Of a DNA stretch of 64,000 nt, positions 21,077 to 37,820 are shown piece after piece (the first letter of the stretch is position 1; each line of letters opens with the position of its first letter). The translations under genes were made by a program, and so were the position numbers. The DNA comes from Halothermothrix sp. Its GTDB lineage: Bacteria; Bacillota; Halanaerobiia; DY22613. The notes under the pieces were generated by a model. The model saw only the letters and a list, made by a program, of their open reading frames with translations, did no database searches and was not told where the DNA came from. Location: contig JAENYK010000002.1 in assembly GCA_016841825.1 (NCBI GenBank), positions 372,001 through 436,000 on the forward strand. Direction: 5' to 3'.

Positions 21077-21186
21077 GCTTAACAAAAAGTTTACGGTTTC
21101 ATTCCTTCGTCATTACACCCAAATTTCTGAAACTAAGCCAAGTCTGGCTAAGTTTCAGAAACTTCGTAAACTCGGTTACGTTATCT
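21077..21186 (+). repeat. integron attC site 2
   Basis: R'' GCTTAAC (21077-21083), R' GTTATCT (21180-21186). Arms GTTTACGG / CGTAAAC; apical hairpin GCCAAGTCTGGC. Confidence 0.93.
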
Positions 21187-21234
21187 GAAACCACAAAAAA
21201 TTTTTTAAAAGAATAAGGAAAGGGTAAGTGCCAA

Positions 21235-21360
21235 ATGCTCCCCACATTCCCTTCACAAAACAACAAGAGTAAAACCTTTATACGGATAAAGGAGCATTTG
21301 TGTGAAAAACAGTGGTATGTTGTATTGTTAAAAGGTGATGAATTCTTGTCCAATATATAA
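21235..21360 (+). CDS. possible 41-residue small protein
   Basis: A short ORF has an AAAGGG motif about 10 bp before ATG. The sequence includes RIKEHLCEKQWYVVLLKGDEF. It sits in the 340-bp gap after attC 2 and may be a remnant of a larger gene, since similar coding-like sequence continues past the stop. Confidence 0.3.
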   Translation: MLPTFPSQNNKSKTFIRIKEHLCEKQWYVVLLKGDEFLSNI

Positions 21361-21526
21361 GGGTGTACATGTCTAGTAAATCTTTTAAAAGTAAAAAATA
21401 CGAACACTTTAATAAAACAATTAAATAATGTAATTTGAATTTGATTTTATAGTTATAACAGGAAGGAAGATTAATTTAATTATAGAAATATTATTATTAA
21501 TACAAAAATAAAAAGGAGGAATTTTT

Positions 21527-22162: not shown

Positions 22163-22421
22163 CCAAAATAACACGTCATATGAATAGGTAAAGAGAATAG
22201 TTTGCTAACTGATTATACAGGAGTTAGTTGAAAAGATATTTTTTTGATAAAAATAATTATTTATGCTCACTTTGAGAATATTGTTTCAAAAAATCTTAGT
22301 TAAAATTTATTGATATGCATAATTTTTTCAACAAATTAGGGAATATGTTGGGACATACCTAACTGAGTATGAGGTAGAAGCCAACGTAGTTTATTGAAGG
22401 TAATCTGGGAGTAGTGGCATC
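22163..22421. other. gene-free stretch before attC 3
   Basis: No gene is seen. A short inverted repeat CTAACT...AGTTAG lies near 22205-22230; otherwise featureless AT-rich sequence. Confidence 0.3.
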
Positions 22422-22521
22422 AGATAACGCGCGATAACAGATATAAGTCTGTATGTTAGATTACACTAATGGCAATAATTATAAGTTCAGACTTACATCG
22501 GTTATTGCGATCATGTTAGCC
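22422..22521 (+). repeat. integron attC site 3 (family F)
   Basis: R'' AGATAAC (22422-22428), R' GTTAGCC (22515-22521). Arms GCGCGATAAC / GGTTATTGCG and inner ATAAGTCTG / CAGACTTA. Same family as 38972-39070, unlike the main family. Confidence 0.85.
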
Positions 22522-22554
22522 GAAATACCGCAAAAAAATTTTGGGGGTAAAAAA

Positions 22555-23322
22555 ATGAAAATAAAATTAAAAAAAGCAACCATTGATTATGAAATAATCG
22601 GAACGGGAATTCCTATAGTTATGTTTAATGGCTTTGTAAATGATAAAAAAGTGATGAAAGAATGTATGGAGCCAATATTTAGTAATAAAAGTGGGTGGCA
22701 AAGAGTTTATCTTGATCATCCTGGGGTAGGAGAAACAGAAATAAATAATAATTACAATAATTTTCTAGATATTTTTGAAATAATTGAAGAATTCATAGAT
22801 AAAGTTATTAAAAATGAAAGATTTATATTAGTAGGATATTCATTTGGAGGCTTTTTAGCGAGGTATATTTTATCAAAAAATCTAGGTAATGTTGATGGAT
22901 TGTTGTTAATGTCTCCAGTAGTTTCTCCTGTTTTGGAAAATGCCACTATTGAAGATAATATAAATCCAGAAGTTATAAATAGAAGCAAAAGAATTTCGGA
23001 AAGGTTAGAAGAAGTTGAAAAATCAATACATAAATCAAATTTTAATTTTTTAGAAAATTTTCGGAATGAAGCAGAAGATTATATAAAAGTTAAAAATAAA
23101 AATATTATAAATGAAAAAATATTTAATAAACCTGTATTAATTCTTACAGGAAAACAAGATACGATAGTAGGATATAAAGATGCATTTAAATTATTAGATT
23201 ACTATCCAAGAGGAACATATTGTGTATTAGATAAGGCTGGTCATGATTTGCAAATTGAACAAGAAAAATTATTTAACGATTTAGTGAATGAATTTTTAAC
23301 GAGGATTGAAAAGGATAGATAA
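22555..23322 (+). CDS. alpha/beta-fold hydrolase
   Basis: The 255-residue protein has the alpha/beta hydrolase order: GTGIPIVMFNGF (oxyanion strand), DHPGVGET, LVGYSFGGFLARY (nucleophile Ser in GYSFGG), LTGKQDTIVGY (Asp) and DKAGHDLQIEQ (His). It would hydrolyse a small ester or similar bond in the cytoplasm; the substrate is unknown. ATG 22555 has GGGGG 6 bp upstream; the longer in-frame start at 22453 lies inside the attC site and is rejected. Confidence 0.85.
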   Translation: MKIKLKKATIDYEIIGTGIPIVMFNGFVNDKKVMKECMEPIFSNKSGWQRVYLDHPGVGETEINNNYNNFLDIFEIIEEFIDKVIKNERFILVGYSFGGFLARYILSKNLGNVDGLLLMSPVVSPVLENATIEDNINPEVINRSKRISERLEEVEKSIHKSNFNFLENFRNEAEDYIKVKNKNIINEKIFNKPVLILTGKQDTIVGYKDAFKLLDYYPRGTYCVLDKAGHDLQIEQEKLFNDLVNEFLTRIEKDR

Positions 23323-23337
23323 AAAATGAGGTACATC

Positions 23338-23448
23338 GGCTAACAATAAGTTTACGGTTTCACTTCTGACGTCGTTTCACCCAAATTTCTGAACCTAAGC
23401 CAAGTCTGGCTAAGGTTCAGAAACTTCGTAAACTCGGTTACGTTAACT
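23338..23448 (+). repeat. integron attC site 4
   Basis: R'' GGCTAAC (23338-23344), R' GTTAACT (23442-23448). Arms GTTTACGG / CGTAAAC; apical GCCAAGTCTGGC. Nearly identical to attC 2. Confidence 0.94.
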
Positions 23449-23590
23449 GACATGTTTAGCTTTTGGTTTTCAAAAAATCTTTTTAAAACATGTTCAAACA
23501 ACAGTTAACTAAATATGTTGTAGTAAAAATAATGTGTTTATGGTATAATAAATATGTTCAAATACATTGATTATGAATATATTTAAGAGA
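23449..23590 (+). promoter_or_regulatory. promoter-bearing cassette leader shared with 58010-58140
   Basis: TATAAT at 23544-23549 is preceded by TGG, an extended -10 box. The ~140-bp leader resembles the one in front of the flavodoxin cassette at 58158 (ACA-rich start, CAAACAACAG, ATGGTATAATAAA, ATTCAAATA-like). Confidence 0.65.
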
Positions 23591-23603
23591 GGATGAACAT
23601 ATT

Positions 23604-24650
23604 ATGATGTCTTTTCGAGATGATAGATTGAAGAAAGCAAATATTCCAATGAGAATAGTCAGGTTGATTAGCAAAATTAATGAATTTAAGGGTCAGCAAA
23701 ATCTCTATATTAATCAATCGCCGCAAATTTTAGAAACCTTACAGAAAGTGTCTATAGTTCAGAGTACAAAAGCTTCTAATAGTATTGAGGGTATTATTAT
23801 TACAGACAAGAGATTACAGGAGATTATGAAAGACAGTACCAGGCTAAAGGATAGGTCTGAAGGTGAAATTGCTGGATATAGAGATGTATTAACAACGGTT
23901 CATACTTCATACGAAGCTATTCCGATTAGTTCCAATATTATTCTACAACTTTATAGAGATTTATATAGATATATTTCTGCCACGGGCGGTGTCTGGAAGA
24001 ATCAAGATAATGTCATTGAAGAGATTTTGCCGGATGGAAGTCGGTATATTCGTTTCAAGCCAGTATCAGCAGTAGAAACCCCTGCTTCAATGGAAGAGCT
24101 TTGCTACTATTATAATAAGGAAGTAAGAGATGATGTTTTAGATCCATTGATTTTAATTGGAGCTTTCATCTTAGACTTTTTGTGTATCCATCCTTTCAAT
24201 GATGGTAATGGACGAATGGCGAGACTATTGACTTTACTATTGTTGTATAAAGCAGATTTTGAAGTTGGTAGGTATATAAGTTTAGAAAAAATCATTGAGG
24301 ATAGTAAGGAAAGCTATTATGAGAGTTTGAATAGGTCGTCAATAGGATGGCATGGAGGTAATCATGATATCTATAGTTGGATTGAGTATTGGTTAGGATC
24401 AATACTTGCAGCTTACAAAGAATTTGAAAGTAGAGTTGGTTTGATCGATAGTCGAAAAGGAAATAAGAGTTATAGAGTGGAACAAGCGATAATGAGCGTT
24501 TTGGGAACATTTACTAAAGAAGATATCCGGAATGCTTGTCCTGATGTTTCTTATTCAACCATAAACAGAGTATTTGCACAGTTAAAAGAGGATGGTGTGA
24601 TTGAATCCTTGGGTAAAGGTAGAAATGCAAAGTGGAAAAGATTACGGTAA
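23604..24650 (+). CDS. Fic family protein with winged-helix C terminus
   Basis: The 348-residue protein has the Fic active-site loop HPFNDGNGRMARL and, near residue 60, the N-terminal inhibitory helix motif S-N-S-I-E-G (S/T-x-x-x-E-G), so it is a self-inhibited class II Fic enzyme. Fic proteins AMPylate target proteins. The C-terminal ~90 residues look like a winged helix (SYSTINRVFAQLKEDGVIES). GAGAGG precedes ATG 23604/23607. Unlike most cassettes it has its own promoter leader. Confidence 0.9.
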   Translation: MMSFRDDRLKKANIPMRIVRLISKINEFKGQQNLYINQSPQILETLQKVSIVQSTKASNSIEGIIITDKRLQEIMKDSTRLKDRSEGEIAGYRDVLTTVHTSYEAIPISSNIILQLYRDLYRYISATGGVWKNQDNVIEEILPDGSRYIRFKPVSAVETPASMEELCYYYNKEVRDDVLDPLILIGAFILDFLCIHPFNDGNGRMARLLTLLLLYKADFEVGRYISLEKIIEDSKESYYESLNRSSIGWHGGNHDIYSWIEYWLGSILAAYKEFESRVGLIDSRKGNKSYRVEQAIMSVLGTFTKEDIRNACPDVSYSTINRVFAQLKEDGVIESLGKGRNAKWKRLR

Positions 24651-24674
24651 TCCTAAACTGGGATGACACACGTC

Positions 24675-24734
24675 AGTTAACACGTGATATGGTGAATTTT
24701 CTCCAAAACTCCGCATATCGCGATCATGTTAGAC
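24675..24734 (+). repeat. integron attC site 5 (short, 60 bp)
   Basis: R'' AGTTAAC (24675-24681), R' GTTAGAC (24728-24734). Arms CGTGATATGG / CCGCATATCGCG-like (ACGTGATATG with GCATATCGCG). It resembles the short attC sites of classical integrons. Confidence 0.85.
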
Positions 24735-24769
24735 AGACATTGGACTGGCGTGGTATTAAATCGAAGACT

Positions 24770-24797
24770 TAAAACAAAAAGCACCCACGAAGGTGCT
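24770..24797 (-). terminator. terminator of the phd-parE unit
   Basis: Read on the minus strand, AGCACC...GGTGCT is followed by a T-rich run, just after the toxin stop codon. Confidence 0.75.
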
Positions 24798-25101
24798 AGA
24801 CAAGAAAGTTGTATTTTCTTTTGCCGTGAAGGATTCTTTGAATTTCTACAGTATCATCATTTACTACATAGAAGACAAGATAGCTTTCAACAACTAACAT
24901 TCTATAATTGAGATACTGGAGACGAAAATCTTTCGGAATAATGCCCATAAATGGGAAGTCAGCCAATTGTGAAACTGCTTTATCAATTTGGTCAAGGAAT
25001 TTTAAAGCAGCACCTGGATTATCAGTTTGGATATATTCCAGGATTTCTTCAAGATCTTTCTGAGCGATAGGTAGATATTCAACATTATATTTTTTACTCA
25101 C
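24796..25101 (-). CDS. RelE/ParE family toxin
   Basis: This 101-residue protein has the ParE/RelE pattern: VEYLPIAQKDLEEILEYI near the start, NPGAALKFLDQI, then YRMLVVESYLVFYVVNDDTV and IQRILHGKRKY at the end. Members either block gyrase (ParE) or cut mRNA on ribosomes (RelE); which one is not clear. The gene is opposite to the array direction and overlaps the antitoxin gene by 8 bp, a standard antitoxin-first operon. Confidence 0.88.
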   Translation of the reverse strand: MSKKYNVEYLPIAQKDLEEILEYIQTDNPGAALKFLDQIDKAVSQLADFPFMGIIPKDFRLQYLNYRMLVVESYLVFYVVNDDTVEIQRILHGKRKYNFLV

Positions 25102-25360
25102 TATATTTTGCTCTTATTTGAGCCATTAGATTTTGGTGAGATTTACGTGGGGCATCTGATCTACTTTCAGTTTCTGCTTCAGCAAGTTTTTGATAGAGTT
25201 CGATTAGGGCACATTGTTTTTCATAAAGAGCCAGACTCATAACTACCATATCGCCTTGACCATTCTTAGTAAGGAAAACTGGTTCGCCTTCTTTGTGACA
25301 TATTTCCGAGATTTGAGCGAAGTTGTTGCGAAGATCGGAAACAGGTTTGATTATTGGCAT
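25094..25360 (-). CDS. Phd/YefM family antitoxin
   Basis: The 88-residue protein begins with IIKPVSDLRNNFAQISEIC and has EPVFLTKNGQGDMVVMSLALYE, the Phd/YefM DNA-binding half; the C-terminal tail (about residues 55-88) would bind and mask the toxin. GAGAGGAG precedes its ATG on the minus strand. It has its own promoter and palindromic operator, so the pair can be expressed regardless of its place in the array. Confidence 0.9.
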   Translation of the reverse strand: MPIIKPVSDLRNNFAQISEICHKEGEPVFLTKNGQGDMVVMSLALYEKQCALIELYQKLAEAETESRSDAPRKSHQNLMAQIRAKYSE

Positions 25361-25392
25361 TTATTTCAACTCCTCTCAATAGGATTACTATT

Positions 25393-25411
25393 ATTATATC
25401 ATAATTATGAT
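25393..25411 (-). promoter_or_regulatory. promoter and operator of the phd-parE unit
   Basis: On the minus strand TATAAT (25398-25393) directly abuts ATCATAATTATGAT (25398-25411), a perfect 14-bp palindrome, the likely Phd operator for autorepression. Confidence 0.6.
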
Positions 25412-25670
25412 AAGACTACTACAAAAAGTTGAGATGTGCAGAAATAAACAAAAGGATTATTTGAATTAATATTCCCTAGCCAACTAGCGAGGTTGAGAAA
25501 GCTTTTGATAACGTTCAAGCCAGATATCTTTGGACAGAAAAAAGGAGTGGCAAAAATCATACATTTAATGTTATTTCTAAATCAATAGGTACGTGAATGT
25601 TTCAAGAAATTATTTTATAATAGATTTAAAAATGTTTTGGATTGCGTCAAAGTTAAACCAGTTGTACGGC
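25412..25670. other. gene-free remnant between the toxin-antitoxin unit and attC 6
   Basis: No gene is recognised; AT-rich sequence with only very short ORFs. Confidence 0.3.
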
Positions 25671-25774
25671 GCATACATGAGGTTTAAGACTACACTATCG
25701 TTGTGTCCAAATTGATTTGCCAAGCCAAGTCTGGCTGAGGCTCATCAACTTCTTAAACCCCAGGAACGTTATAT
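25671..25774 (+). repeat. integron attC site 6 (worn R'')
   Basis: R'' has lost a base (GCATAC, 25671-25676); R' GTTATAT (25768-25774) is intact. Arms TTTAAGACT / TTCTTAAAC; apical GCCAAGTCTGGC. Confidence 0.8.
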
Positions 25775-25888
25775 GAAATATCACTATGGATGTTAGTAAC
25801 CGTTGATCTTCAGGATTGGTATAAGATAGTCTGTTATATGTTAAATTTGATTATTATGCAGCATAAAACAACAGGAGATGGGAGATAT

Positions 25889-26779
25889 ATGAATTTCAAA
25901 ATGTTTAATAAGGTTAAGATAGTGTACTTTTCTGGAACAGGTGGAACAACTCGTATTACTAATTTAGTATACAAGTTTTTAGCGGAACATGGCGTAACAG
26001 CCGAAAAAGAATTTTTAGAACATAACAATTACTTGAAGGATATTTACGATATAAAAGATATTGACTTAATAATCATTTTATTTCCAGTATATGCATTTGA
26101 TGCACCTGAACCAATATATAAGTGGACTAAAAGATTACCGAAAGGAGAAAGAACTCCTGTTGTTATTATTTCTGTATCTGGTGGAGGAGATATCTGGCCT
26201 AATAGTGCATGTAGAGTAGGAATAATAAAAAGGCTGCAAAAAAAAGATTTCAACATTATATATGAAAGAATGATGGTAATGCCTTCAAATTTTATGGTTT
26301 CTACTAATGAACATCTTGCAATACGATTATTAAAAGTATTACCTTCAAAAATGGCGAAAATCGTAAAAGAAATATTGGAAGGTAAAAAACGAAGAATAAA
26401 ACCCAAAATTGCTGGGAAAATTTTGACAACAATATGCAAATTAGAAAAGCCTTGTGCTAGAATATTTGCGAAAGGGTTAAAAGTGAGACTAAATTGTAAT
26501 GAGTGTAGATGGTGTGTAAATAATTGTCCTATGGATAATATTGAAATGCAAGAAAATAAGCCTATTTTTAAATGGAATTGTGTAGCCTGCCTTAGATGTA
26601 TTTATGGTTGTCCAAAAAATGCAATTTATACAAAAATATTTTCTTTCATAATTATTAAAAAAGGATATAATTTGAATAAATTACAAAAACAAATTGATGA
26701 TTTCGAATTAGAACCAATTGAAAATAGTAATGTTGGCTTTCTATTCAAAGGTGTAAAAGAATATTTAATGAAAAAATAG
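25889..26779 (+). CDS. EFR1-family flavodoxin-ferredoxin fusion protein
   Basis: The 296-residue protein has an N-terminal flavodoxin-like domain (IVYFSGTGGTTRITNLV; LFPVYAFDAPEP) and, at the C terminus, two 4Fe-4S motifs: CNECRWCVNNCP and CVACLRCIYGCP. It is likely an electron carrier or reductase in the cytoplasm of an anaerobe. The start ATG 25889 follows GGAGATGGGAG; the ORF extends 99 bp further up without an SD. A beta/gamma-type attC follows. Confidence 0.85.
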   Translation: MNFKMFNKVKIVYFSGTGGTTRITNLVYKFLAEHGVTAEKEFLEHNNYLKDIYDIKDIDLIIILFPVYAFDAPEPIYKWTKRLPKGERTPVVIISVSGGGDIWPNSACRVGIIKRLQKKDFNIIYERMMVMPSNFMVSTNEHLAIRLLKVLPSKMAKIVKEILEGKKRRIKPKIAGKILTTICKLEKPCARIFAKGLKVRLNCNECRWCVNNCPMDNIEMQENKPIFKWNCVACLRCIYGCPKNAIYTKIFSFIIIKKGYNLNKLQKQIDDFELEPIENSNVGFLFKGVKEYLMKK

Positions 26780-26823
26780 AGTAAAAATATGGACAAAATT
26801 AAATGTTGGTACCGTGATACTTC

Positions 26824-26925
26824 ATATAACATGGAATTTAAGATTCCACTACTCTCCATCCAAATTCATTCACCAAGGGCAGTCGCCCTAAGGTTCATGA
26901 ACTTCGGCAAACGGATACGTTATAT
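26824..26925 (+). repeat. integron attC site 7 (hybrid arms)
   Basis: R'' ATATAAC (26824-26830), R' GTTATAT (26919-26925). The left arm is the TTTAAGATTCC type, the right arm the GGCAA-ACGGATACG type, so the arms pair poorly; apical GGGCAGTCGCCC. Confidence 0.9.
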
Positions 26926-26971
26926 GCCATTCCTGCTTGAGCAGAGTGAATTATGTAAGAAAGAAATAAAG

Positions 26972-27070
26972 ATGGACAGGTTGACTCAAAAAGCATATGA
27001 AGATTGGTGTTTTGGAAGAACCCCATATTTAGAGAGAGTGTGTTCAGGAAACTTTCTAAACTGTCAATAA
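26972..27070 (+). pseudogene. truncated cassette gene, 32 residues left
   Basis: The ORF reads MDRLTQKAYEDWCFGRTPYL, then ERVCSGNFLNCQ and a stop. Shifted frames just downstream still read KLSIIIKEL, a stop, then KYAKESNLKSL, so this is the decayed start of a larger soluble protein that ran toward 27,270. The family is not recognised. AAAGAAATAAAG gives at best a weak SD. Confidence 0.5.
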
Positions 27071-27278
27071 TTATAAAAGAATTGTAGAAATATGCTAAAG
27101 AGAGTAATCTGAAATCATTGTAGTCGATTATGCAAGTAAAGGTGAGATTATTTATAAAGCCTCGTAGGTGAGAATTTTAACTCTTTGGTTTTAGGTTTTT
27201 AGATGAAGTTTTTAGTGAATTATATATGTCAGCTTTGCTAATGAAGGAAATTTTGTTGCTTTAAAGAGCCTGGTTATC

Positions 27279-27345
27279 GCTGAACAAACATTCTCTCCGC
27301 TGAGAAACGCTCCGAGAACGTCGGTTGATGTCCCGAATGTTATAT
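27279..27345 (+). repeat. integron attC site 8 (family D)
   Basis: R'' GCTGAAC (27279-27285), R' GTTATAT (27339-27345). Arm ACATTC pairs with GAATGT; inner part CTCTCCGCTGAGAAACG. Same family as 31772-31848. Confidence 0.85.
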
Positions 27346-27395
27346 GACATTGAACCGTGGGTATAGGAACTAATATAAAGGGGAATAAGTGGCTT

Positions 27396-28118
27396 ATGAT
27401 GATGAATATAACAATAATACATGGAAGTCAGAGAAGAGGTAACACAGAAAAAACTATTGAAATAGCTAAAAATCGGTTATCTACATATGATGATATTAAA
27501 TTTCATGATTTGTATTTACCAAAAGATTTACCATTGTTTTGTGTTGGGTGTTTTAGTTGTCTTCATAAAGGAACTTATGCTGGGGAATATTGCCCTCATG
27601 CTAAATATACACATCCTATTCTTGAAACATTAAAAATTTCAGATGGAATAATTATAACATCACCAGTTTATGCACTATCAGAAAGTGGACAAATTAAAGC
27701 TTTCCTTGATCATTATGCATGTATTTTTATTAGTCATAAACCAATACAGGAAATGTTTTCTAAGACAGCACTCGTAATATCTACGACTTATGGTGCTGGC
27801 ACAAACTATGTGATAAAGACAATTGTAAGAAATATAAAGTTTTGGGGCATAGCAAAAATATTTAAATGTGGTTTAAATTTATTTGCAGACAACTGGGATG
27901 ATATGACAATTAAGAATCGGAATAAAAATGAGAAGTTTTTGGAGAAAAAAATATATGGTTTTTATAACTCAATAAAACGTAAAAGATATCATATCCCATT
28001 AAGAACAAAGATATTATTTATTGTATTTAGAATTGTAATGAAAAGACATCCAGATGGTAATAAAGATAAGGAATATTGGAAAGAAAAAGGCTGGCTAGAT
28101 AAAAAACGACCATGGTGA
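27396..28118 (+). CDS. flavodoxin family / NADPH-dependent FMN reductase-like protein
   Basis: The 240-residue protein starts ITIIHGSQRRGNTEKTIEIA (phosphate-binding loop for FMN), has a CVGCFSCL cysteine motif and ITSPVYALSESGQIKAFLD, the usual flavin-site strand. It probably reduces quinones, nitro compounds or other small molecules. Three ATGs in a row (27396, 27399, 27402) follow AAAGGGGAA; the first has 10 bp spacing. The longer ORF start at 27357 has no SD. Confidence 0.82.
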   Translation: MMMNITIIHGSQRRGNTEKTIEIAKNRLSTYDDIKFHDLYLPKDLPLFCVGCFSCLHKGTYAGEYCPHAKYTHPILETLKISDGIIITSPVYALSESGQIKAFLDHYACIFISHKPIQEMFSKTALVISTTYGAGTNYVIKTIVRNIKFWGIAKIFKCGLNLFADNWDDMTIKNRNKNEKFLEKKIYGFYNSIKRKRYHIPLRTKILFIVFRIVMKRHPDGNKDKEYWKEKGWLDKKRPW

Positions 28119-28136
28119 GTATATATGTTCAACGTC

Positions 28137-28245
28137 ATATAACAGCAAGGTTTACGGCTCCACTATCGTTTCGCTCAAATTCAACGACCTAACATAAGAG
28201 CTATGTAAGGCCTCTTGGACTTCGTAAACCTACGGGACGTTAGCG
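28137..28245 (+). repeat. integron attC site 9
   Basis: R'' ATATAAC (28137-28143), R' GTTAGCG (28239-28245). Arms GTTTACGG / CGTAAAC; apical ACATAAGAGCTATGT, a variant not seen elsewhere. Confidence 0.92.
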
Positions 28246-28287
28246 GAAATTGCATCATGGGTATAATAAGAAAAAGAGGTGGAATAT

Positions 28288-29230
28288 TTGACTATTAATT
28301 TTGAAACAGTAACAGAAGATCATGTTAATGAAGCAGTTGATTTAGTATTAAATGCATACTATGAAGAAAAGAAAGCTATTCAATATCTCCCGGAAGATAA
28401 TTATGCAAATGTGTTTAAAAAAAGAATAAAGAACTTATTTGGAAATGGTTCAGGAATTGTTGCTATATTTGACAAAAGAATAGTAGGATTTTTAGCAGGA
28501 TATGAAATCAAAGAATTATGGGGTAAGTGTAAGGGAATTTATTGTCCAGTATATGGGCATGGAGCGATTAATAAAAAGCGAAGGGAAATATATCAACAAT
28601 TATATCAAAAAGCAGCAGAAATCTGGGTGGGAAATGGTATTACAACCCTATATGCACAAGATACAGAAACTATTGATACGTGGTTTTGGTTAGGATTTGG
28701 ACTTCGTTGTGTTGATGCAATTCGTGAAGTTTCTCTAATTTCAAAAATCAATCGAAGTATTGAGATTAAAAAAGTTAAAGAAAATGATATACCATTTTTA
28801 GCAAATGTTCAAAATGAGCTTCATATGTACTTTAGAAAGTCGCCTATTTTTATGCCAGTACAGGAAGAAAATCCAATCGATTATTTAAAGGAATGGTTAA
28901 GTAAAGATAACCATCATTTATGGATGGCATATGATAATGAGCAGACAAAAACTTTAGGCTTAATGAAAATTGAGCCATCAGGAGAGAGATTTATTACCGA
29001 GTCCTAAAATGATGAATATAACTGGTGCATATGTTGATAAAAACTCTAGACAAAAAAACATTGGGGTATCTTTGTTAGGAGCAATACAAAAATGGCTATT
29101 AGAAAATGATTATAAGTTTTGCGGAGTAGATTATGAGTCTTTTAATATTTTAGGAAGTAGTTTTTGGAATAAATATTTTACTCCATATACATATAGTTTA
29201 GTAAGACGTGTAGATGAGAGAATTTTATAG
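28288..29230 (+). pseudogene. two-domain GNAT acetyltransferase with one frameshift
   Basis: AAAGAGG lies 9 bp before TTG 28288, the likely start. The frame runs to a stop at 29007; the matching continuation (ITGAYVDKNSRQKNIGVSLL, the acetyl-CoA motif, then FGVDYES-like region FCGVDYESFNILGSSFW and YSLVRRVDERIL) is in another frame from about 28,990 to 29230. Joined, this is a ~310-residue tandem GNAT protein. One short indel near 28,995-29,010 explains it; a sequencing error is possible. Confidence 0.75.
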
Positions 29231-29268
29231 AAATAAATAAATTATTCGTAAGCGAAGCATGTGACTTA

Positions 29269-29378
29269 CGATAACAATATATTGCCGGTTCCATTCCTTC
29301 GTCACTGTATCCAAATTTATGAACCTAAGCCAAGTCTGACTAAGGTTCATAAATTTCGGCAATACGAATACGTTATGT
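29269..29378 (+). repeat. integron attC site 10
   Basis: R'' CGATAAC (29269-29275), R' GTTATGT (29372-29378). Arms TATTGCCGGTT / GGCAATACG; apical GCCAAGTCTGAC. Confidence 0.93.
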
Positions 29379-29452
29379 GCAATTGGGCTAAAAGTATGTA
29401 CGACTCTAAATTGAAAAAAATTAGGAGAATGATAAAAGGAGAATTGGTGTTT

Positions 29453-29866
29453 ATGGTAAATGGAGTAAATCATATAACATTTGCAGTTAGTAATTTAGAG
29501 ATATCTATAAATTTTTATACAAAATTATTAGAATTAAAATTAGTAGCACATTGGGATAGAGGAGCATATTTAATGGCAGGTAATATATGGATTGCTCTAA
29601 ATTTAGATGAAAAGGAAATAACTGAACGGAACCCTGATTATTCACATATTGCATTTAATGTTCTTTCAACAGAATATCCAAAATTAAAAAACCGACTTAT
29701 GGAAGCAGGAGTAAAGACATTTAAAAACAATACATCAGAAGGTGAGTCTTTTTATTTTCTTGATCCCGATGGCCATAAATTAGAATTACATTACAATTCA
29801 ATAGAAGATCGTTTGAAGTGGGCGAAAGAAAATAATTGGTCTTCTTTTGTACTTGAGCAGTACTAA
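29453..29866 (+). CDS. FosA-like fosfomycin thiol transferase (VOC family)
   Basis: The 137-residue protein aligns by eye with FosA along its whole length. The metal ligands are His7 (GVNHITF), His65 (YSHIAF) and Glu111 (HKLELH). The residues known in FosA for fosfomycin and K+ binding are also in place with a one-residue shift: Thr9, Lys91, Ser95, Ser99, Tyr101 and Arg120. FosA opens fosfomycin with glutathione; the thiol used here is unknown, as many anaerobic Firmicutes lack glutathione. AAAGGAG lies 11 bp before ATG 29453; an in-frame GTG at 29447 is the alternative. The gene sits alone in its cassette. Confidence 0.85.
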   Translation: MVNGVNHITFAVSNLEISINFYTKLLELKLVAHWDRGAYLMAGNIWIALNLDEKEITERNPDYSHIAFNVLSTEYPKLKNRLMEAGVKTFKNNTSEGESFYFLDPDGHKLELHYNSIEDRLKWAKENNWSSFVLEQY

Positions 29867-29956
29867 AATATTAGATCATTGAGTAGCAACTGGTTTTTTT
29901 ATAAAAGACATAGTTTATGTTTTTGAAAAATAAACTGATAGCTTAGGAGTAAGCCC

Positions 29957-30069
29957 GCCCAACTGCACATAACATGGGATTTAAGATTCCACTACCGTTC
30001 CATCCAAATTCATTCACCGGGTGCGTTGCGTTAATGTTCATGAACTTCTTAAATCCTGAAACGTTGGGC
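29957..30069 (+). repeat. integron attC site 11
   Basis: R'' GCCCAAC (29957-29963) and R' GTTGGGC (30063-30069) are perfectly complementary and fit RYYYAAC/GTTRRRY exactly. A second possible R'' (ACATAAC) lies at 29967. Arms TTTAAGATTCC / TTCTTAAATCC. Confidence 0.92.
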
Positions 30070-30094
30070 GACATGGCCGCGGGAGGTATATATA

Positions 30095-30625
30095 GTGATA
30101 AAACTTATGGAAGTTAATAAATTTAACAGTCATCATATCAATTCTTTCAATGGAGAATTTATAGTTAAATCAAAACTTATTTTAGATGTAACGGATGACG
30201 GTATAAGTTATACAGTCGAACCTGTAAAACCGTATAAGAAACGATATGAGGATAACCTAATTAATCCCGATGAATATATAAATAATTCAGAAAGACAAAT
30301 ATTTTTTGCTTTATTTGATAATAATTTTGCTGGACAAATTATATTACGAAGGAACTGGAATCAATATGCATATGTTGAAGATATATGTGTTGATGTTCAA
30401 TATAGAAAAATGCATATAGGAGAAAGATTGATATCAACTGCTATAAAGTGGGCTAAAGAAAAGGAATTAGCGGGAATTGTGCTTGAAACACAAAATAATA
30501 ATGTTACTGCATGTAAGTTTTATGAATCATGTGATTTTGAAATAGGTGGTTTTGATAAATATTTATATAAAGGAATAGATGCTGATACTGATGAAATAGC
30601 AATATATTGGTATTATTTTTTGTAA
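30095..30625 (+). CDS. streptothricin N-acetyltransferase-like GNAT protein
   Basis: The 176-residue protein matches the Sat/SatA group along its length: ISYTVEPVKPYKKRY, WNQYAYVEDICVDVQYRK, IVLETQNNNVTACKFYESC, EIGGFDKYLYKG and a closing AIYWYYF. Sat enzymes acetylate the beta-lysine of streptothricin. One oddity: the acetyl-CoA loop reads R-K-M-H-I-G where the family normally has R-G-K-G-V-A, so activity should not be assumed. GTG 30095 is the start, with GGGAGG 8 bp upstream. Confidence 0.85.
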   Translation: MIKLMEVNKFNSHHINSFNGEFIVKSKLILDVTDDGISYTVEPVKPYKKRYEDNLINPDEYINNSERQIFFALFDNNFAGQIILRRNWNQYAYVEDICVDVQYRKMHIGERLISTAIKWAKEKELAGIVLETQNNNVTACKFYESCDFEIGGFDKYLYKGIDADTDEIAIYWYYFL

Positions 30626-30650
30626 GCGAACATGACGAACATGTGACGTC

Positions 30651-30758
30651 ATATAACATGGCATTTACAGTTCCGCTGTCGCTGCACCCAAATTCATAAT
30701 ACCTAAGCCAAGTCCTGACTAAGGTTTATGAACTTCGTAAATGCCTGGTATGTTATGA
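30651..30758 (+). repeat. integron attC site 12
   Basis: R'' ATATAAC (30651-30657), R' GTTATGA (30752-30758). Arms GGCATTTACAG / CGTAAATGCC; apical GCCAAGTCCTGAC. Confidence 0.9.
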
Positions 30759-30790
30759 AATGGGAGGCAAAAAGATTAATTTTGAAAGCT

Positions 30791-31603
30791 ATGATAACTG
30801 AAGATAAAGAGGTGAGAAAAATAATAGACGGTCATATTCATATAGAAAAAGGCGAATATAATCTTAGTTGGATAAATGAATTTGTAAATTCAGCTATGTT
30901 AAAAGGACTAACTGAAATTTGGTTGTTAGAGCATTGCTACCGTTTTAAAGAATTTATTCCAATGTATGGTTCAGTATGTGATTATAGTGATTATATTAAT
31001 AGCTGGTTTCATCGTAAAGCAGGTATATATAGCTTAGATAAATATTTAAATTTAGTTGAAAATGTTAGGAATGCTGATTTTCCTATAACTATAAAATTCG
31101 GATTGGAAATATGCTATTTTAAAGATTGTAAGGATTTTGTTTATAAGAATACAAAAGATAAAGGATTGGATTTTCTAGTTGGTAGTGTTCATTTTGTTGA
31201 TAGTTTTGCTTTTGATCATAAAGCTGAATTTTGGAAAGATATTGATGTCAACCAAATATATCATCGATATTTTGAAACAAGTATTGATTTAGCGAAAAGT
31301 GGTATTTATAATGGTATAGCTCATCCTGATTGTATAAAACTTTTTGGTCACACGCCAACATTTTCACTATTGAAATATTATGATAATCTTGCTATCGAAC
31401 TAGCAAAGCAAGATATGTATGCTGAACAAAGTAGTGGTATAGCACGAAGATGCGATGCTGAGTTAGGCATGAATAAAGATATGTTAATTGCTATGAAAAA
31501 ACATAATGTAAATATTGTAACAGTTTCTGATGCTCATTGTCCTGAGGATGTTGGTTTATATATTAAAGATTTAAATGATATTTTATCTGAATGTAAATTG
31601 TGA
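30791..31603 (+). CDS. PHP domain protein (histidinol-phosphatase-like)
   Basis: The PHP metal motifs are in order: IIDGHIHIEKG, EHCYRF, GLEICYF, GSVHFVDS, IAHPDCIKLF and SDAHCPEDVG. Proteins of this type are phosphoesterases related to histidinol-phosphatase. The start is uncertain: ATG 30791 has no SD, whereas AAAGAGGTGAG ends a few bases before ATA 30821, exactly where the family normally begins (M-I-D-G-H). The true start may be that ATA, or a lost ATG. Confidence 0.8.
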   Translation: MITEDKEVRKIIDGHIHIEKGEYNLSWINEFVNSAMLKGLTEIWLLEHCYRFKEFIPMYGSVCDYSDYINSWFHRKAGIYSLDKYLNLVENVRNADFPITIKFGLEICYFKDCKDFVYKNTKDKGLDFLVGSVHFVDSFAFDHKAEFWKDIDVNQIYHRYFETSIDLAKSGIYNGIAHPDCIKLFGHTPTFSLLKYYDNLAIELAKQDMYAEQSSGIARRCDAELGMNKDMLIAMKKHNVNIVTVSDAHCPEDVGLYIKDLNDILSECKL

Positions 31604-31630
31604 ATAGTTGTGTCCTTTCAGGTTACATAT

Positions 31631-31707
31631 ACATAACAAGGCATATCTATAATTTTTTCCGCTTAGAAACGCTCCAAAAACTACGGATGATGCCACGGAT
31701 GTTATCG
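31631..31707 (+). repeat. integron attC site 13 (family D)
   Basis: R'' ACATAAC (31631-31637), R' GTTATCG (31701-31707). Arm AAGGCAT pairs with ATGCCACGG; inner TTCCGCTTAGAAACGCTCC. Confidence 0.85.
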
Positions 31708-31848
31708 GAAATTTGGCTAAAGGAGAAATCCTGCATATTTATTTATGGTTTTTTTACCACGGAGCGATTTAGTTCAACAAGGCATAACCTACATTCTCTC
31801 CGCTAAGAAACGCTCCGAGAACGTCGGTTGATGCCTCGAATGTTGCTA
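31708..31848 (+). other. ORF-less cassette (141 bp)
   Basis: Between two family-D cores lies a cassette with no ORF. Its middle (GGAGAAATCCTGCATATTT, then a T-rich run) recurs at 38923-38977 in front of another attC. Confidence 0.6.
31772..31848 (+). repeat. integron attC site 14 (family D)
   Basis: R'' GTTCAAC (31772-31778), R' GTTGCTA (31842-31848). Arm AAGGCATAAC with GATGCCTCGAATG; inner CTCTCCGCTAAGAAACG. Confidence 0.82.
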
Positions 31849-31898
31849 TATGAAATTTTTGCAGATGGTTTAATGAGTAAGCAAAGGGGGAAAAACAA

Positions 31899-32510
31899 AT
31901 GCATATTAACGGGAGTATAAATTGTAATCATTTTTCGTGTAGTGATATAAATGAAGGTGGATTTTTAGTTCCGACGAAGAATATAAAGAAGGAAAAAATA
32001 AGAATTTTGATGATATCCGAAGTTCCTCCAGAAAAAAAAGAAGATTATTTTTATTCATCCGATAAATCTAACTATATGAATACTACTATTCGGGCTTTCA
32101 AAGATGCAGGTATAGAAGTTAATAGTTTAAATGAATTAGAAGAATTAGGTGTGTATTTGACAACGGCTGTAAAATGTCCTAAACTTCAATATCGAATATC
32201 AGCTAAAACAATAAAAAATTGTTCGAAAATTCTAGAAAAAGAAATAAGTTATTTCCCGGATGTTCAAGTATATTTATTAATGGGGGATGTGGCTATCAAA
32301 GCTATGAATTATATATGGAAAAGGAAAAGTGGTGAGAAAGTAATTCCTAATGGTTCAACTTATAAGATAAGAGAAACTGAATATTTTTATGAAAATAGAA
32401 AAGCAATACCTTCATATTTGCAAACAGGAAAGAATTATCTTATTGAGAAATCAAAAAGACAAATGATTGCTGATGATATAAAAAAAGCATTTGAGTATGT
32501 GAATAAGTAA
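31899..32510 (+). CDS. uracil-DNA glycosylase superfamily-like protein
   Basis: The 203-residue protein has KIRILMISEVPPEKKEDYF at the place of UDG motif I, LGVYLTTAVKCPK in the middle (like the NVVKCRP strand of family 4/5 UDGs), VYLLMGDVAIKAM and a closing IPSYLQTGKNYLIEKS, where motif II lies. The catalytic water-activating residue is not clearly conserved, so it may be a UDG-fold protein with another role. AAAGGGGG precedes ATG by about 9 bp. Confidence 0.5.
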   Translation: MHINGSINCNHFSCSDINEGGFLVPTKNIKKEKIRILMISEVPPEKKEDYFYSSDKSNYMNTTIRAFKDAGIEVNSLNELEELGVYLTTAVKCPKLQYRISAKTIKNCSKILEKEISYFPDVQVYLLMGDVAIKAMNYIWKRKSGEKVIPNGSTYKIRETEYFYENRKAIPSYLQTGKNYLIEKSKRQMIADDIKKAFEYVNK

Positions 32511-32525
32511 GTGCGCAAAAACTTC

Positions 32526-32628
32526 ATATAACATGGGATTTGAGATTCCACTACGTTTCATCCAAATTCATTTACCAAGCACTTCGCATTGAGGTTCATG
32601 AATTTCTTAAATCTCTGGTACGTTAGAT
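32526..32628 (+). repeat. integron attC site 15
   Basis: R'' ATATAAC (32526-32532), R' GTTAGAT (32622-32628). Arms GGATTTGAGATTCC / TTCTTAAATC; apical AAGCACTTCGCATTGAGG. Confidence 0.92.
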
Positions 32629-32672
32629 GAAATATAATGCTAAGATAATTATTTTAAAGGGAGGTAAAAAAC

Positions 32673-32729
32673 ATGCATTTTACATTAGCATTTTTTCCGA
32701 TAAAAATCAGACAATTATTCTTTCTCTAG
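32673..32729 (+). CDS. possible 18-codon leader peptide
   Basis: AAAGGGAGGT lies 7 bp before ATG 32673, one of the strongest SD sites in the array. The ORF codes MHFTLAFFPIKIRQLFFL and stops 25 bp before the kinase-like gene. Its role, if any, is unknown. Confidence 0.35.
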   Translation: MHFTLAFFPIKIRQLFFL

Positions 32730-32754
32730 ACTAAAAATAAGGAGAGGATAATTC

Positions 32755-33396
32755 ATGATGATAGCGGATAATGTTTTAGAACATCATTTAAAAGATGTAT
32801 ATTGGATTGGTGGTAGTGCTTGTAGTGGGAAAACTACGATGAGTAAAATTATTTCTAAAAAATATGGTTTCACTTTGTATAATTCTGATGCAAAAATGTT
32901 AGAACATAAAAAAAACGCTTCTTTCTGGGAACAATCAGCAATGAAGAGACACTTCGTAGATTGGGAATGGTATTTCAATCGCCCAATTAATGAATATACA
33001 AAATGGTTGAATGATATAATGAAAGAACAAATGAGTATGATAATAGTTGATTTACTTAAAATTTCACAGAACAAACCAGTAATTGTTGAAGGAGTTTTTT
33101 CAGCAGATATGATCAAAAATATAGTTCACTATAATAACGCTATTTTTCTATACGCAGAAAAACATTTGATAAGGAAAGATTATTTTAATCGAGAGGATAA
33201 AAAAGATATGTTAAGTGTTATTAATAGTCTTTCTGATTCAGTTAAATCATTAAATAATGTTTTAAATACAGTAATAACTGGGTCTGAACAAAGTTTAGAA
33301 ATAACTAAAAACAATAATATGAAATATTTAATAAGAAATGATAAAAGTAGTATAGAGAAAACATTAAAATGTATGGAAAACTATTTTGATCTTTAA
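32755..33396 (+). CDS. P-loop kinase-like protein
   Basis: The 213-residue protein has a Walker A loop, IGGSACSGKTTMSKIISKK, near residue 18 and VIVEGVFSADMI in the position of a Walker B / lid segment, as in small nucleoside or adenylate-type kinases. The substrate cannot be named. AAGGAGAGG precedes ATGATG at 32755. No attC follows; a decayed kinase gene comes next, so the cassette border has been lost. Confidence 0.65.
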   Translation: MMIADNVLEHHLKDVYWIGGSACSGKTTMSKIISKKYGFTLYNSDAKMLEHKKNASFWEQSAMKRHFVDWEWYFNRPINEYTKWLNDIMKEQMSMIIVDLLKISQNKPVIVEGVFSADMIKNIVHYNNAIFLYAEKHLIRKDYFNREDKKDMLSVINSLSDSVKSLNNVLNTVITGSEQSLEITKNNNMKYLIRNDKSSIEKTLKCMENYFDL

Positions 33397-33464
33397 GTAT
33401 GAGATTGGGGGAAGATAACCCTTCCCTCCCCTCCCCCTTAAAGTTCCCAGGGAGGATTATTTTT

Positions 33465-34062
33465 ATGGAAGAGTTCATTAGGAAAGACATTAGAAATAAC
33501 ATATATGCTGAATTATAAGATAGATACAATCTTAGTAATTTAAAAGAATTAAATGGATATCAGAATTTTGTTTATTAAGGAAATATAGATAATACCAGAT
33601 ACATATTACGTATAAGCCATGCTTTGCATAGAAGCAAACCTGAGCCGGAAGAAGAAATAAGATTCATGAATATATTAGATAGAGATAATGTACCACTTGC
33701 TAGACCAGTAAAAATATCATCCCATAAATTAGAATAAATTGAAAGTGATGAACTCTATTTTATCTCTATTTTTGAGAAAGCTGAAGGTGTTGATTGGGAT
33801 AAAAAAGAACATACTAGCCAGAACTTTTTTAATGCAGGGAAAGCATTAGGAAAAATATATAGGATTTCTCAAAATACAGATACAACCAGTACTTAGAAAT
33901 AGCTGAGAGTGTCATACCAGATAAAATAATTATTAATTATATGGAGGAATTTAAAGATGAATTGACTAGTTAACCTATAACTAAGAAATCTTATGGATTA
34001 ACTCATGGTGATTATTTTTATGGGAATTTGATATATGATAATGATAGAGCTATGTTAGGCAC
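33465..34062 (+). pseudogene. decayed aminoglycoside phosphotransferase-family gene
   Basis: AGGGAGG precedes ATG 33465. With several TAA/TAG codons and at least one frameshift, the reading still shows an APH-type kinase: ILRISHALHRSKPEPEEEI, FISIFEKAEGVDW, then YGLTHGDYFYGNLIYDND (the Brenner-like H-G-D-x-x-x-x-N catalytic loop). It ends abruptly at a half attC site, so the 3' end is lost. Confidence 0.75.
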
Positions 34063-34093
34063 TGAAACTTCGTAAACCTGCGGGACGTTATGT
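34063..34093 (+). repeat. attC site 16, right half only
   Basis: Only GAAACTTCGTAAACCTGCGG and R' GTTATGT (34087-34093) remain; the left half is missing, fused to the APH pseudogene. Confidence 0.75.
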
Positions 34094-34165
34094 GAAATAC
34101 ACCTAAAGTAAAATTCTGTTTACAAAAATATGAAACTTTAAAAAAGTATATGGAAGGTTTTATTA

Positions 34166-34609
34166 TTGTATAAAATAGATGCAGTTAAGTTTGGAGACAT
34201 ACTATGGGATCGTCTTATTAATTATGCAGAAAATTGTTCATGGAGAGCAGGAGTTAATCTTGCTAAACAAATGAAAGAAAAGGCATTTACTGACTGGGAG
34301 AGAGTTTTTATTGCAACAAAAGATTCAAAGATTTGTGGATATTGTACTTTGGCAAAAACTGATTGTATTCCTGATGTTGATTATAAACCTTATATAGGAT
34401 ATATATTTGTCGGAGAGGAATATCGTGGTAATCGTTTAAGTCAAAAAATGATAAAGCAAGTACTAAATTATGCTAAAGAATTAAAATTTTCAAAAGTTTA
34501 TATTGTAAGTGGAGAAAAAGGATTGTATGAGAAATATGGGTTTTTAAAAATAGCGGATAAAAAAGATTTTTGGGGAAGAGATGAGCAAATTTTTAACATC
34601 GCTATATAA
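34166..34609 (+). CDS. GNAT family N-acetyltransferase
   Basis: The 147-residue protein has the GNAT core: WERVFIATKDSKICGYCTL, YIGYIFVGEEYRGNRLSQKM (acetyl-CoA loop R-G-N-R-L-S) and a closing VSGEKGLYEKYGFLKI. The target is unknown. TTG 34166 is the start, with GGAAGG 8 bp upstream. No attC is seen before the next gene. Confidence 0.85.
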   Translation: MYKIDAVKFGDILWDRLINYAENCSWRAGVNLAKQMKEKAFTDWERVFIATKDSKICGYCTLAKTDCIPDVDYKPYIGYIFVGEEYRGNRLSQKMIKQVLNYAKELKFSKVYIVSGEKGLYEKYGFLKIADKKDFWGRDEQIFNIAI

Positions 34610-34782
34610 AAACCAGTATAATTATATGTTATAAATGCAAGAAAGGATTTTCGCGAAAGTTGGTGTACTTCACATGATCATTGCTCCTTTTCCACAGATG
34701 GGACATAGTGTAATATCTAAACCTGTAGCTCTAAACAGACATTCTCGCCAGGAATACGAAATAATTAAGGGGAGGAATAAAT
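34610..34782. other. gap with possible family-D attC remnant
   Basis: No gene. AAACAGACATTCTCGCCAGG near 34733 resembles the left part of family-D attC sites, but no R' partner follows. Confidence 0.3.
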
Positions 34783-35307
34783 GTGAAGACTTATAGCTTG
34801 GAGAAAAACAATATTTCTTATGTTGCGAAGCTAATGGCACATATCAAACCTGATTGGTGGGATTATGAGAGTGGAGTCGAACAGTTAAGTGATATTAGTA
34901 ATTCGGCAAAAAATATAGGCTGGTTCCTGGGAGAAGATGAGCAACATCCTAAAGGCTGGATTTTGTGTACCGAATATAAAGGATATTCTTGTTTGAGTAT
35001 AGAATGCCTTGGTTATGATGAGAACGGAAGATTTGTAATGGAACAACAACTCCAACCATTAATAGAAAAAGCAGAAAAATATGCTCGAAATAAGGGTTTT
35101 CGTATAATGAGATATATTATTAGTTCAATTGATATGTCATGTCACGAAAGAGAATTGAATGATCTTTGGAAAGAGTTAAGAGATTTAAAATCTTATAATC
35201 GAGAGCATTTTGATTATTTTGTTGAATATGGATTTAAGCCAGCTGGATTTATGCCTAATTGTTATGGTGAAAGTTATCATGGTATAATAATGATAAAAGA
35301 ATTATAG
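34783..35307 (+). CDS. GNAT-like acetyltransferase
   Basis: The 174-residue protein looks like a GNAT relative: KGWILCTEYKGYSCLSIECL, LIEKAEKYARNKGFRIMRYI and a C-terminal FVEYGFKPAGFMPNCYGESY. The usual acetyl-CoA R-x-x-G-x-G/A loop is replaced by DENGRFVMEQQL, so the assignment rests on overall pattern. GTG 34783 has GGGGAGG 7 bp before it. A half attC follows 68 bp downstream. Confidence 0.6.
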   Translation: MKTYSLEKNNISYVAKLMAHIKPDWWDYESGVEQLSDISNSAKNIGWFLGEDEQHPKGWILCTEYKGYSCLSIECLGYDENGRFVMEQQLQPLIEKAEKYARNKGFRIMRYIISSIDMSCHERELNDLWKELRDLKSYNREHFDYFVEYGFKPAGFMPNCYGESYHGIIMIKEL

Positions 35308-35375
35308 AATCTAATAATTCATAATGATATTAAAATCGGAAAATATGAGCTTATTAACGCGGGACATGCGACATC

Positions 35376-35425
35376 AGATAACAAGATATACTCCTTCGTC
35401 GCTTCGCCCGAATTCATGAATCCAA
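35376..35425 (+). repeat. attC site 17, left half only
   Basis: R'' AGATAAC (35376-35382) and TCGTCGCTTCGCCCGAATTC are recognisable; the right half and R' are gone. Confidence 0.65.
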
Positions 35426-35730
35426 CTTGCGGGGCAAAATTGGAGAGCAATGTACTAAGGTGAAGAAGAACGGCAGACATGTAGAACGAGCTCATTGTTG
35501 AACACCTATCTGGAACTATTAAAAGGGGGTATGATTCCTATTATATGCTTACTAAAGGATTTGAATCAGTAAGTGTTGAAATAGGTCTTGTGCCTATAAT
35601 TTGAAAATGGTAAGTAATATCTTGGGAATTAGTGATATTATGAGAAGATTGAGGGAGCTATGTTTTTGTTATTCGACTAAAATATAATTATTGGTTAGAA
35701 AACTTGTTTTTACTGTAAAAAAAGGTGTAC
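35426..35730. other. gene-free stretch after half attC 17
   Basis: No gene is recognised; there are several short frames only, probably decayed cassette sequence. Confidence 0.3.
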
Positions 35731-35775
35731 TGGTAACTGATTTTTAGTGAGTTTCCACACACTCTGATGTTAAGC
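35731..35775 (+). repeat. short attC-like site 18 (family E)
   Basis: TGGTAAC (35731-35737) and GTTAAGC (35769-35775) flank GAGT...ACTC. A near-identical element occurs at 48250-48293. Confidence 0.5.
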
Positions 35776-35810
35776 GACATTGCACAAATAGGTTAAAGGA
35801 GATAGTAAAT

Positions 35811-36548
35811 ATGATTAAAAAAATAGAAGAAGTATCTATAAATGCATGGCCTTCTTTACAAACTAATATTTACGATGGTTGGATTATTCGCTATGCAAAT
35901 GGATATACAAAGCGCGCTAATTCTATTAATCCGTTATATAACTCGGAAGAAGACTTAGAGAAGAAAATTAAGTATTGTGAAACACTATTTATAAACAGAG
36001 GTTTACCGATAGTTTATAAATTAACTCAAGAATCAAAGCCAACTGACTTAGATAATGAATTAGCAAAGAAAGAATATAAAAAAATAGATTTAACCTCAGT
36101 TCAAATATTAGACTTGAATAAATTTAATAATGTAAAAGATGACAGGTGTATTGTTGATACTAATTTGACGGATACCTGGTTAGAAGCTTTTTGCAAATTT
36201 TCTAAAATAAAAGATAAAGAAAGGCTTACATTAAAAAAGATGTTAACAAAAAGTACTGTAGATAATTATTATTTCAAATTGATCAGAGATGGTCATATCA
36301 TAGCTTGTGGATTAGGAGTAAAGGAAAATATATATTTTGGTTTGTTTGATATTATTGTTGAAGAAAATTATCGGGATAAGGGATATGGTATAAAATTATT
36401 AAATGAAATATTAACTTTTGCAAAGATAAATCTAGTCCAAAAAGCATATTTACAAGTTGTCGCAAATAATTATCCAGCAATAAAATTATACGAAAAAGTA
36501 GGTTTTAAGGAAATTTATAAATATTGGTATAGGGTAAAAGAAATTTAA
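35811..36548 (+). CDS. GNAT family N-acetyltransferase (double-domain type)
   Basis: The 245-residue protein starts INAWPSLQTNIYDGWIIRYA and YTKRANSINPLY, the N-terminal half typical of a tandem GNAT group. The C-terminal half has the active acetyl-CoA loop EENYRDKGYGIKLL and NNYPAIKLYEKVGF. AAAGGAG lies 10 bp before ATG. The target molecule is unknown. Confidence 0.88.
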   Translation: MIKKIEEVSINAWPSLQTNIYDGWIIRYANGYTKRANSINPLYNSEEDLEKKIKYCETLFINRGLPIVYKLTQESKPTDLDNELAKKEYKKIDLTSVQILDLNKFNNVKDDRCIVDTNLTDTWLEAFCKFSKIKDKERLTLKKMLTKSTVDNYYFKLIRDGHIIACGLGVKENIYFGLFDIIVEENYRDKGYGIKLLNEILTFAKINLVQKAYLQVVANNYPAIKLYEKVGFKEIYKYWYRVKEI

Positions 36549-36565
36549 AGCAAAGTGCAAAGATT

Positions 36566-36675
36566 GTATAACACTGTATTGCCGGTTCCATTCTTTCGTC
36601 ATTTCACCCAAGTTTCTGAACCTTAGTCATGACTGACTGAGGTTCAGAAACTTTGGCAATACGGATACGTTACCT
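36566..36675 (+). repeat. integron attC site 19
   Basis: R'' GTATAAC (36566-36572), R' GTTACCT (36669-36675). Arms TATTGCCGGTT / GGCAATACGGATACG; apical TAGTCATGACTGACTGAGG. Confidence 0.93.
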
Positions 36676-36820
36676 GCCATTGAGCTAGCTTTTCATATAA
36701 AATTTTTTTCAAATTATAAGCCTTCATTATGGCAATTATTTTAAAAATACAGTATAATATTTGTTAGGGTTAGGAAAACATGCTTTGAGTCAAATAGTTG
36801 CAAAGGGTGGTAAATAAATA

Positions 36821-37159
36821 TGAAGCAATTGGAAGATATAATCGAATGAAAAACATGTACTTTTAATTGCAAAAAAACTGTTGATGAAGAAGTATGATGT
36901 TTCGAAATTAATTTTGTTTGGTTCAAAAGCTAGGGGTGATGCTGATGATGAATCGCTGGCTATGCTAAATATGTTCTCCGAAACTACATGCAATAGTCGC
37001 GATGTTCTGTCGCGGATTACAAAAACGAAGCTATGGAGATTTGAACATTCATATTTGAAGAATAATGGGCACATGAATTACTATAAACAATTTGACAAAT
37101 CAGAATTTGTTTTGGGGTGTCTTTGGAGAATACAGCGAACAAGAGATTATTTATATTAG
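36821..37159 (+). pseudogene. truncated MNT-type nucleotidyltransferase
   Basis: ATG 36821 opens a short frame that stops after 9 codons. In a shifted frame (from about 36881) comes KKYDVSKLILFGSKARGDAD, the nucleotidyltransferase G-S-x-A-R-G-x-A motif, after which the sequence turns into unrelated residues (NMFSETTCNSRD) and stops at 37159. The gene has lost its C-terminal part. MNT proteins often pair with HEPN toxins, but none is present. Confidence 0.6.
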
Positions 37160-37174
37160 GTATGGGAGGTAAAT

Positions 37175-37771: not shown

Positions 37772-37820
37772 TATAATTCACCATACTATAATGACGAAAA
37801 ATTTAGAGGAGGAGTTAAAG

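Follow-up and report, generated by a model that had tools for sequence, protein, structure and literature searches.

A predicted FosA-type fosfomycin thiol transferase on a gene cassette in Halothermothrix

FosA enzymes are described as using glutathione and residing chiefly on the chromosomes of Gram-negative bacteria, with FosB filling the corresponding role in Gram-positives by means of bacillithiol. To our knowledge, integrons have hardly been recorded in halophilic anaerobes. A fos gene with FosA-like residues in a Halothermothrix contig raises three questions: to which branch of the Fos family does it belong, is it part of a gene cassette, and which thiol could its product use? We address these for a window of 64,000 nucleotides, the whole stretch of DNA that was analysed. 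Computation covers the family of the protein, its diagnostic residues, the anatomy of the cassette, its occurrence across genera, purifying selection on the gene and the thiol genes of the hosts; fosfomycin as the substrate, the identity of the thiol, and expression are what we infer.

The family of the encoded enzyme

The gene and its translation signal are placed as follows.

29453..29866, + strand: fos gene, predicted fosfomycin thiol-S-transferase, a FosA-type VOC metalloenzyme (ATG to stop, 137 aa)
29437..29441, + strand: ribosome-binding site AGGAG, 11 nt ahead of the fos ATG (GGAG at 29438-29441)

The highest-scoring NCBIfam model for the product is Fos_GSH (NF000496; 162.7 bits, E 4.6e-48), followed by FosA-group models, and its Pfam match is Glyoxalase (PF00903). 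This score misses the curated Fos_GSH cut-off of 180 bits, as do those of all six tested relatives from its Bacillota clade (148.7-173.9 bits). The best FosB models reach 104.8-114.8 bits, about 48 bits or more under Fos_GSH and short of the FosB cut-off of 171, and the FosB loop residues are likewise absent. When the PDB was searched with phmmer, the first six matches were FosA proteins (E 1.8e-35 to 1.5e-31), with FosB next (E 4.7e-26). The match to solved FosA is far beyond chance (E = 1.8e-35). An AlphaFold2 model from a two-sequence input was poor (pLDDT 55).

The preliminary description had rested its FosA assignment on nine residues known for metal, substrate and K+ binding. All nine (H7, T9, H65, K91, S95, S99, Y101, E111 and R120) are indeed in place in the family alignment. 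However, H7, H65, E111, S99, R120 and mostly Y101 are also common to FosB and FosX, and consequently these indicate the Fos family rather than FosA. The decision falls instead to W34, G37 and the loop residues K91, N93 and S95, which are FosA-specific. The K+ loop reads K91-N-N93-T-S95-E-G97 and is FosA-like, with Thr at position 94 where FosA usually has Lys or Arg, whereas FosB carries mostly G34, L/T37, D93 and R95 at the same positions. The general base Glu of the FosX type is absent, position 37 being Gly here and Glu in Listeria FosX-like and FosI-like sequences.

Several positions depart from the FosA pattern. A48 and N50 match FosB (ALN) and not FosA (C48, S50), F90 stands where most FosA carry Trp, and in the alignment the loop at the dimer interface lacks two residues relative to K. 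pneumoniae FosA. FosZ and FosL1 have been reported to show the same shortening (PMC12888890). In FosA12, mutation of T9, Y39, H64, K90 or S94 abolishes resistance (PMC13148022), and the equivalents of these residues are all kept in the fos product.

An initial tree, which included a long-branch VOC outgroup, had poor resolution; it was rebuilt with the long branches removed and FosX as the outgroup. Here, proteobacterial and cyanobacterial FosA form one group with the Bacillota clade of the fos product, to the exclusion of FosB and FosX (support 99/100), and the nine Bacillota sequences are themselves a clade (97/92). Placement in a non-fosfomycin VOC group, the outcome that the preliminary description had raised against itself, did not occur. 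Constraining the clade to FosB cost 9.7 log units and was not rejected by the AU test (p 0.23), so that placement on the FosA side is well supported, not closed. Identity to the product is 43-47% for named FosA, 33-43% for FosB and 32-34% for the FosX type, and thus at most 47% for any enzyme known to act on fosfomycin. Closer relatives are found in Orenia (84%), G285 (62%), genomes G002-G006 (56-60%) and G437 (57%).

It is very unlikely that the protein is a FosB-type bacillithiol transferase made FosA-like through convergence. A48 and N50, a bacillithiol host and the AU result would all suit such an origin, but W34, G37, N93 and S95 are absent from FosB, the FosB models fall about 48 bits or more under Fos_GSH, and the FosA side is supported at 99/100. 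The earlier claim of a FosA-type rather than FosB-type enzyme in a Bacillota host is thus upheld by profile (162.7 against 104.8-114.8 bits), residues (W34, G37, K91, N93, S95) and tree. By these measures, and by solved structures, the gene encodes a Fos-family VOC enzyme closest to FosA.

The cassette, its array and its neighbours

Around the gene, the window holds the following elements.

29373..30063, + strand: fos gene cassette, 691 bp, from the G^TT of the upstream attC to the G^TT of its own attC
29265..29382, + strand: attC-like site of the preceding cassette (98.1 bits, E 4.8e-20)
29963..30073, + strand: attC-like site of the fos cassette (102.2 bits, E 5e-21)
20219..58013, + strand: cassette array, in which the covariance model places 24 attC-like sites scoring 58 bits or more, each in + orientation; integrase not found
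30095..30625, + strand: next cassette directly after fos, a GNAT acetyltransferase closest to the streptothricin acetyltransferases Sat4/Sat3 (114.8 bits, under the curated cut-off)
47049..47936, + strand: further cassette gene of the array, a relative of ANT(6)-type aminoglycoside 6-adenylyltransferases (264 bits, cut-off 420)

A strict attC pattern search did no better than on shuffles, and an Rfam search gave no match; a looser stem-based scan and a covariance model succeeded. Fourteen intergenic repeats could be aligned; of the 20 pairs in the consensus structure, 15 show compensatory changes in at least one sequence. Across the whole genome, the covariance model finds 27 sites, 24 of them in 20219-58013. 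A lone site of the same type (97 bits) lies on a 14.5-kb contig behind a 301-aa ORF (G000:C34:4765-4881), and two weak sites lie on contig C18 of the host genome.

The description of the gene as a cassette is confirmed, since its reading frame lies between two attC-like sites of the same orientation (29265-29382, 98.1 bits, and 29963-30073, 102.2 bits) with G^TT cores and cognate ends, as in an integron gene cassette. Outside the core, the two cassette ends (GTTATGTGCAATTG / CAACTGCACATAAC) pair at 10 of 11 positions. This is the highest value among 16 pairs of ends, and less than 1% of mismatched cassette-end pairs reach 9 or more complementary positions. Such pairing would follow from closure of the cassette circle on its own attC. 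The test is relied on for the fos cassette alone; an array-wide excess of end complementarity was not significant (permutation p 0.29, with some cassette boundaries not located). No promoter or terminator stood out within the fos cassette.

The word 'integron' survives only in part: the array of 24 attC-like sites is there, but the genome yielded no integron integrase. None exceeded the cut-off in the 43 contigs of the host genome, nor in 59 genomes of its class. The tyrosine recombinases that turned up (C22, C2 and C31; L042-L044 in other genomes) score well below the integron-integrase cut-off, and are read as XerC/D-like or other recombinases. The IntI beside attI that marks a complete integron was likewise not found, and on present evidence the array, with no integrase over the cut-off, counts as a CALIN. 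Its integrase could be absent, divergent, or supplied in trans. Integron records from Firmicutes are few: IntegronFinder 2.0 reported one complete integron, in Limnochorda pilosa, and only a few CALIN (PMC9024848). Relics of other elements also occur here: a TnpB (IS200/IS605) protein fragment inside the array (45172-45480) and, just past its end on the minus strand (59034-59654), an ORF resembling part of a mutator-type transposase.

The neighbouring cassettes are reminiscent of antibiotic resistance. The Sat4-like acetyltransferase (30095-30625) is 45% identical to plasmid sat4, and the cassette before fos in Orenia encodes an AAC(3)-like acetyltransferase (L003:4922-5743, 192.8 bits, under the curated cut-off). 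The attC of this Orenia cassette is of the type found in the present window. Because the Sat4-like, ANT(6)-like and AAC(3)-like scores all fall below curated cut-offs, these are family resemblances, not resistance calls. What makes them of interest is the setting: halophilic anaerobes carry antibiotic-resistance-like cassettes (fos, sat-like and ant(6)-like here, aac(3)-like in Orenia).

The neighbours also bear on the substrate. The product might be a VOC enzyme whose substrate is a different epoxide or a phosphonate, given that no relative known to be active on fosfomycin comes within 50% identity and that some FosA homologues sit in phosphonate operons (Nostoc). We regard this as highly unlikely, since the fosfomycin, metal and K+ contacts are all kept, and the gene adjoins a streptothricin-acetyltransferase-like cassette in the host and an AAC(3)-like one in Orenia.

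Copies in other genomes and the thiols of their hosts

A second copy of the fos gene lies in a cassette of Orenia metallireducens (Halanaerobiales; NZ_PVNB01000010), a member of the host's class, and encodes a protein 84% identical. The attC site ahead of the Orenia cassette scores 94 bits with the covariance model built from the present window, and the two cassettes have in common the start GTTATGTGCAATTGGGC and the attC end motif CGCCCAACTGCACATAAC. The Orenia cassette differs in an extra second ORF of 162 aa, missing from that of the host. Over aligned coding DNA, the genes are 87% identical, with dN 0.080, dS 0.558 (dN/dS 0.14) and changes by codon position of 14/8/34; the two copies are therefore under purifying selection. 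A third genus (G012) holds a decayed copy, covering residues 36-99 only at 88% identity, which adjoins a transposase relic and itself lies upstream of an attC site.

Beyond these, chromosomal homologues of 56-62% identity occur in other Bacillota. Four of the five genomes G002-G006 carry the gene on the chromosome, beside a conserved aminotransferase-like gene, and none of the five loci showed an attC. In G285 and G437, from outside the host's class, its surroundings are ordinary genes. It is likely that a Bacillota chromosomal gene was captured into a cassette. Separately, a Nostoc plasmid (L052) carries a FosA homologue within a C-P lyase (phn) gene row. Carriage by phages or viruses was considered and rejected, as phage records hold FosB and FosX relatives only and viral contigs none.

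The preliminary description further proposed that such a cassette could be a source reservoir of clinical fos cassettes. This finds no support: among 859 Fos relatives in plasmid records, none reaches 60% protein identity (the best is about 50%), and a search of these records for DNA similarity to the gene found none. With nothing nearer than about 50%, the present gene does not point to the source of any fos gene known from the clinic.

The thiol donor, which that description had left open, can be narrowed from the gene contents of the hosts. The host genome encodes BshA (533.9 bits), BshB1 (273.5) and BshC (541), all over curated cut-offs. Three families of glutamate-cysteine ligase were sought in it, and neither PF04262 nor PF04107 nor a full GshF was found; the GshF model matches only with its ATP-grasp half, on an 896-aa frame. 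These absences speak against glutathione as the thiol in this genome, and the host appears, from its gene content, to make bacillithiol and not glutathione. Bacillithiol or cysteine would thus be the likeliest donor in the host. A separate chromosomal FosB lies on another contig (L002:1477-1959; C14:140993-141385) and exceeds its cut-off (184.4 against 171 bits), so that a need for a second Fos enzyme is not evident.

The other hosts of the cassette gene have different thiol genes. Orenia is without BshC, has no BshA over the cut-off, and encodes a relative of GCS2-type glutamate-cysteine ligase (258 bits, cut-off 463), while G012, also without BshC, has a GshA-type ligase at 457 bits. Both look to be of the gamma-glutamylcysteine/glutathione type. 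Judged by the Bsh and ligase genes of host, Orenia and G012, the fos cassette gene has passed between hosts whose thiols differ. Among the genomes with chromosomal fos homologues, G003, G005, G006 and G285 encode BshC.

We consider it probable that the locus encodes a FosA-type enzyme on a mobile cassette which opens fosfomycin with a thiol, most likely bacillithiol or cysteine in this host. H7, H65 and E111 would form the metal site of the VOC fold, with N93 and S95 in the K+ loop; T9, K91, S99, Y101 and R120 would bind fosfomycin, and the thiol would open its epoxide. The cassette would be excised and inserted through its own attC, and would have moved in this way among Halanaerobiales and their kin. 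In the other hosts of the cassette family, the thiol would have to be gamma-glutamylcysteine or glutathione.

More tentatively, the enzyme could be of FosA ancestry and yet use bacillithiol or show no preference among thiols, its cassette moving between bacillithiol- and glutathione-making Bacillota. If so, the divide between FosA and FosB would be one of ancestry, not of thiol.

Alternatively, the enzyme may be a strictly glutathione-dependent FosA that works in glutathione/gamma-glutamylcysteine hosts of the Orenia type, and is an idle or weak passenger in the bacillithiol host. Its closest named relatives by tree are glutathione-type FosA, Orenia and G012 have glutamate-cysteine ligases and lack BshC, the host already has FosB, and the cassette shows no promoter of its own. 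Nevertheless, we think this unlikely: several of the closest chromosomal homologues (G003, G005, G006, G285) are in BshC-encoding genomes, positions 48 and 50 are FosB-like, and the reading frame is intact.

A FosA-type enzyme that would open fosfomycin with a thiol remains our preferred reading. The gene and its cassette are both genuine, and the gene represents a new, little described branch of the known Fos family. A well-supported Bacillota branch on the FosA side, present in genomes that encode bacillithiol synthesis and mobilised into genomes with other thiol genes, makes the evolution of thiol choice directly testable.

Comparison with known systems

As an array, the locus resembles CALIN, the clusters of attC sites without an integron integrase, in its 24 attC-like sites with no IntI found, and differs from reported ones in being long and in occurring in the Orenia class. 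As a FosA-type enzyme on a gene cassette, the closest parallel is FosC2, a fos cassette of class 1 integrons; unlike the present protein, to which it is 46% identical, FosC2 belongs to Gammaproteobacterial plasmids and a class 1 integron context (PMC10352792).

With FosB, the bacillithiol transferase, the product shares the fold, the metal site, A48/N50 and a bacillithiol host, but identity is 33-43%, and FosB has mostly G34, L/T37, D93 and R95 and is without the FosA K+ loop. With the FosA family (K. pneumoniae FosA, FosA3, FosA8, P. aeruginosa FosA and Tn2921 FosA), it shares length, metal ligands, fosfomycin and K+ contacts, W34, G37, the DPDGH motif and the same side of the tree. It differs from that family in identity (43-47%), in having A48/N50 for C48/S50, F90 for W90 and T94 for K/R, and in sitting in a bacillithiol host.
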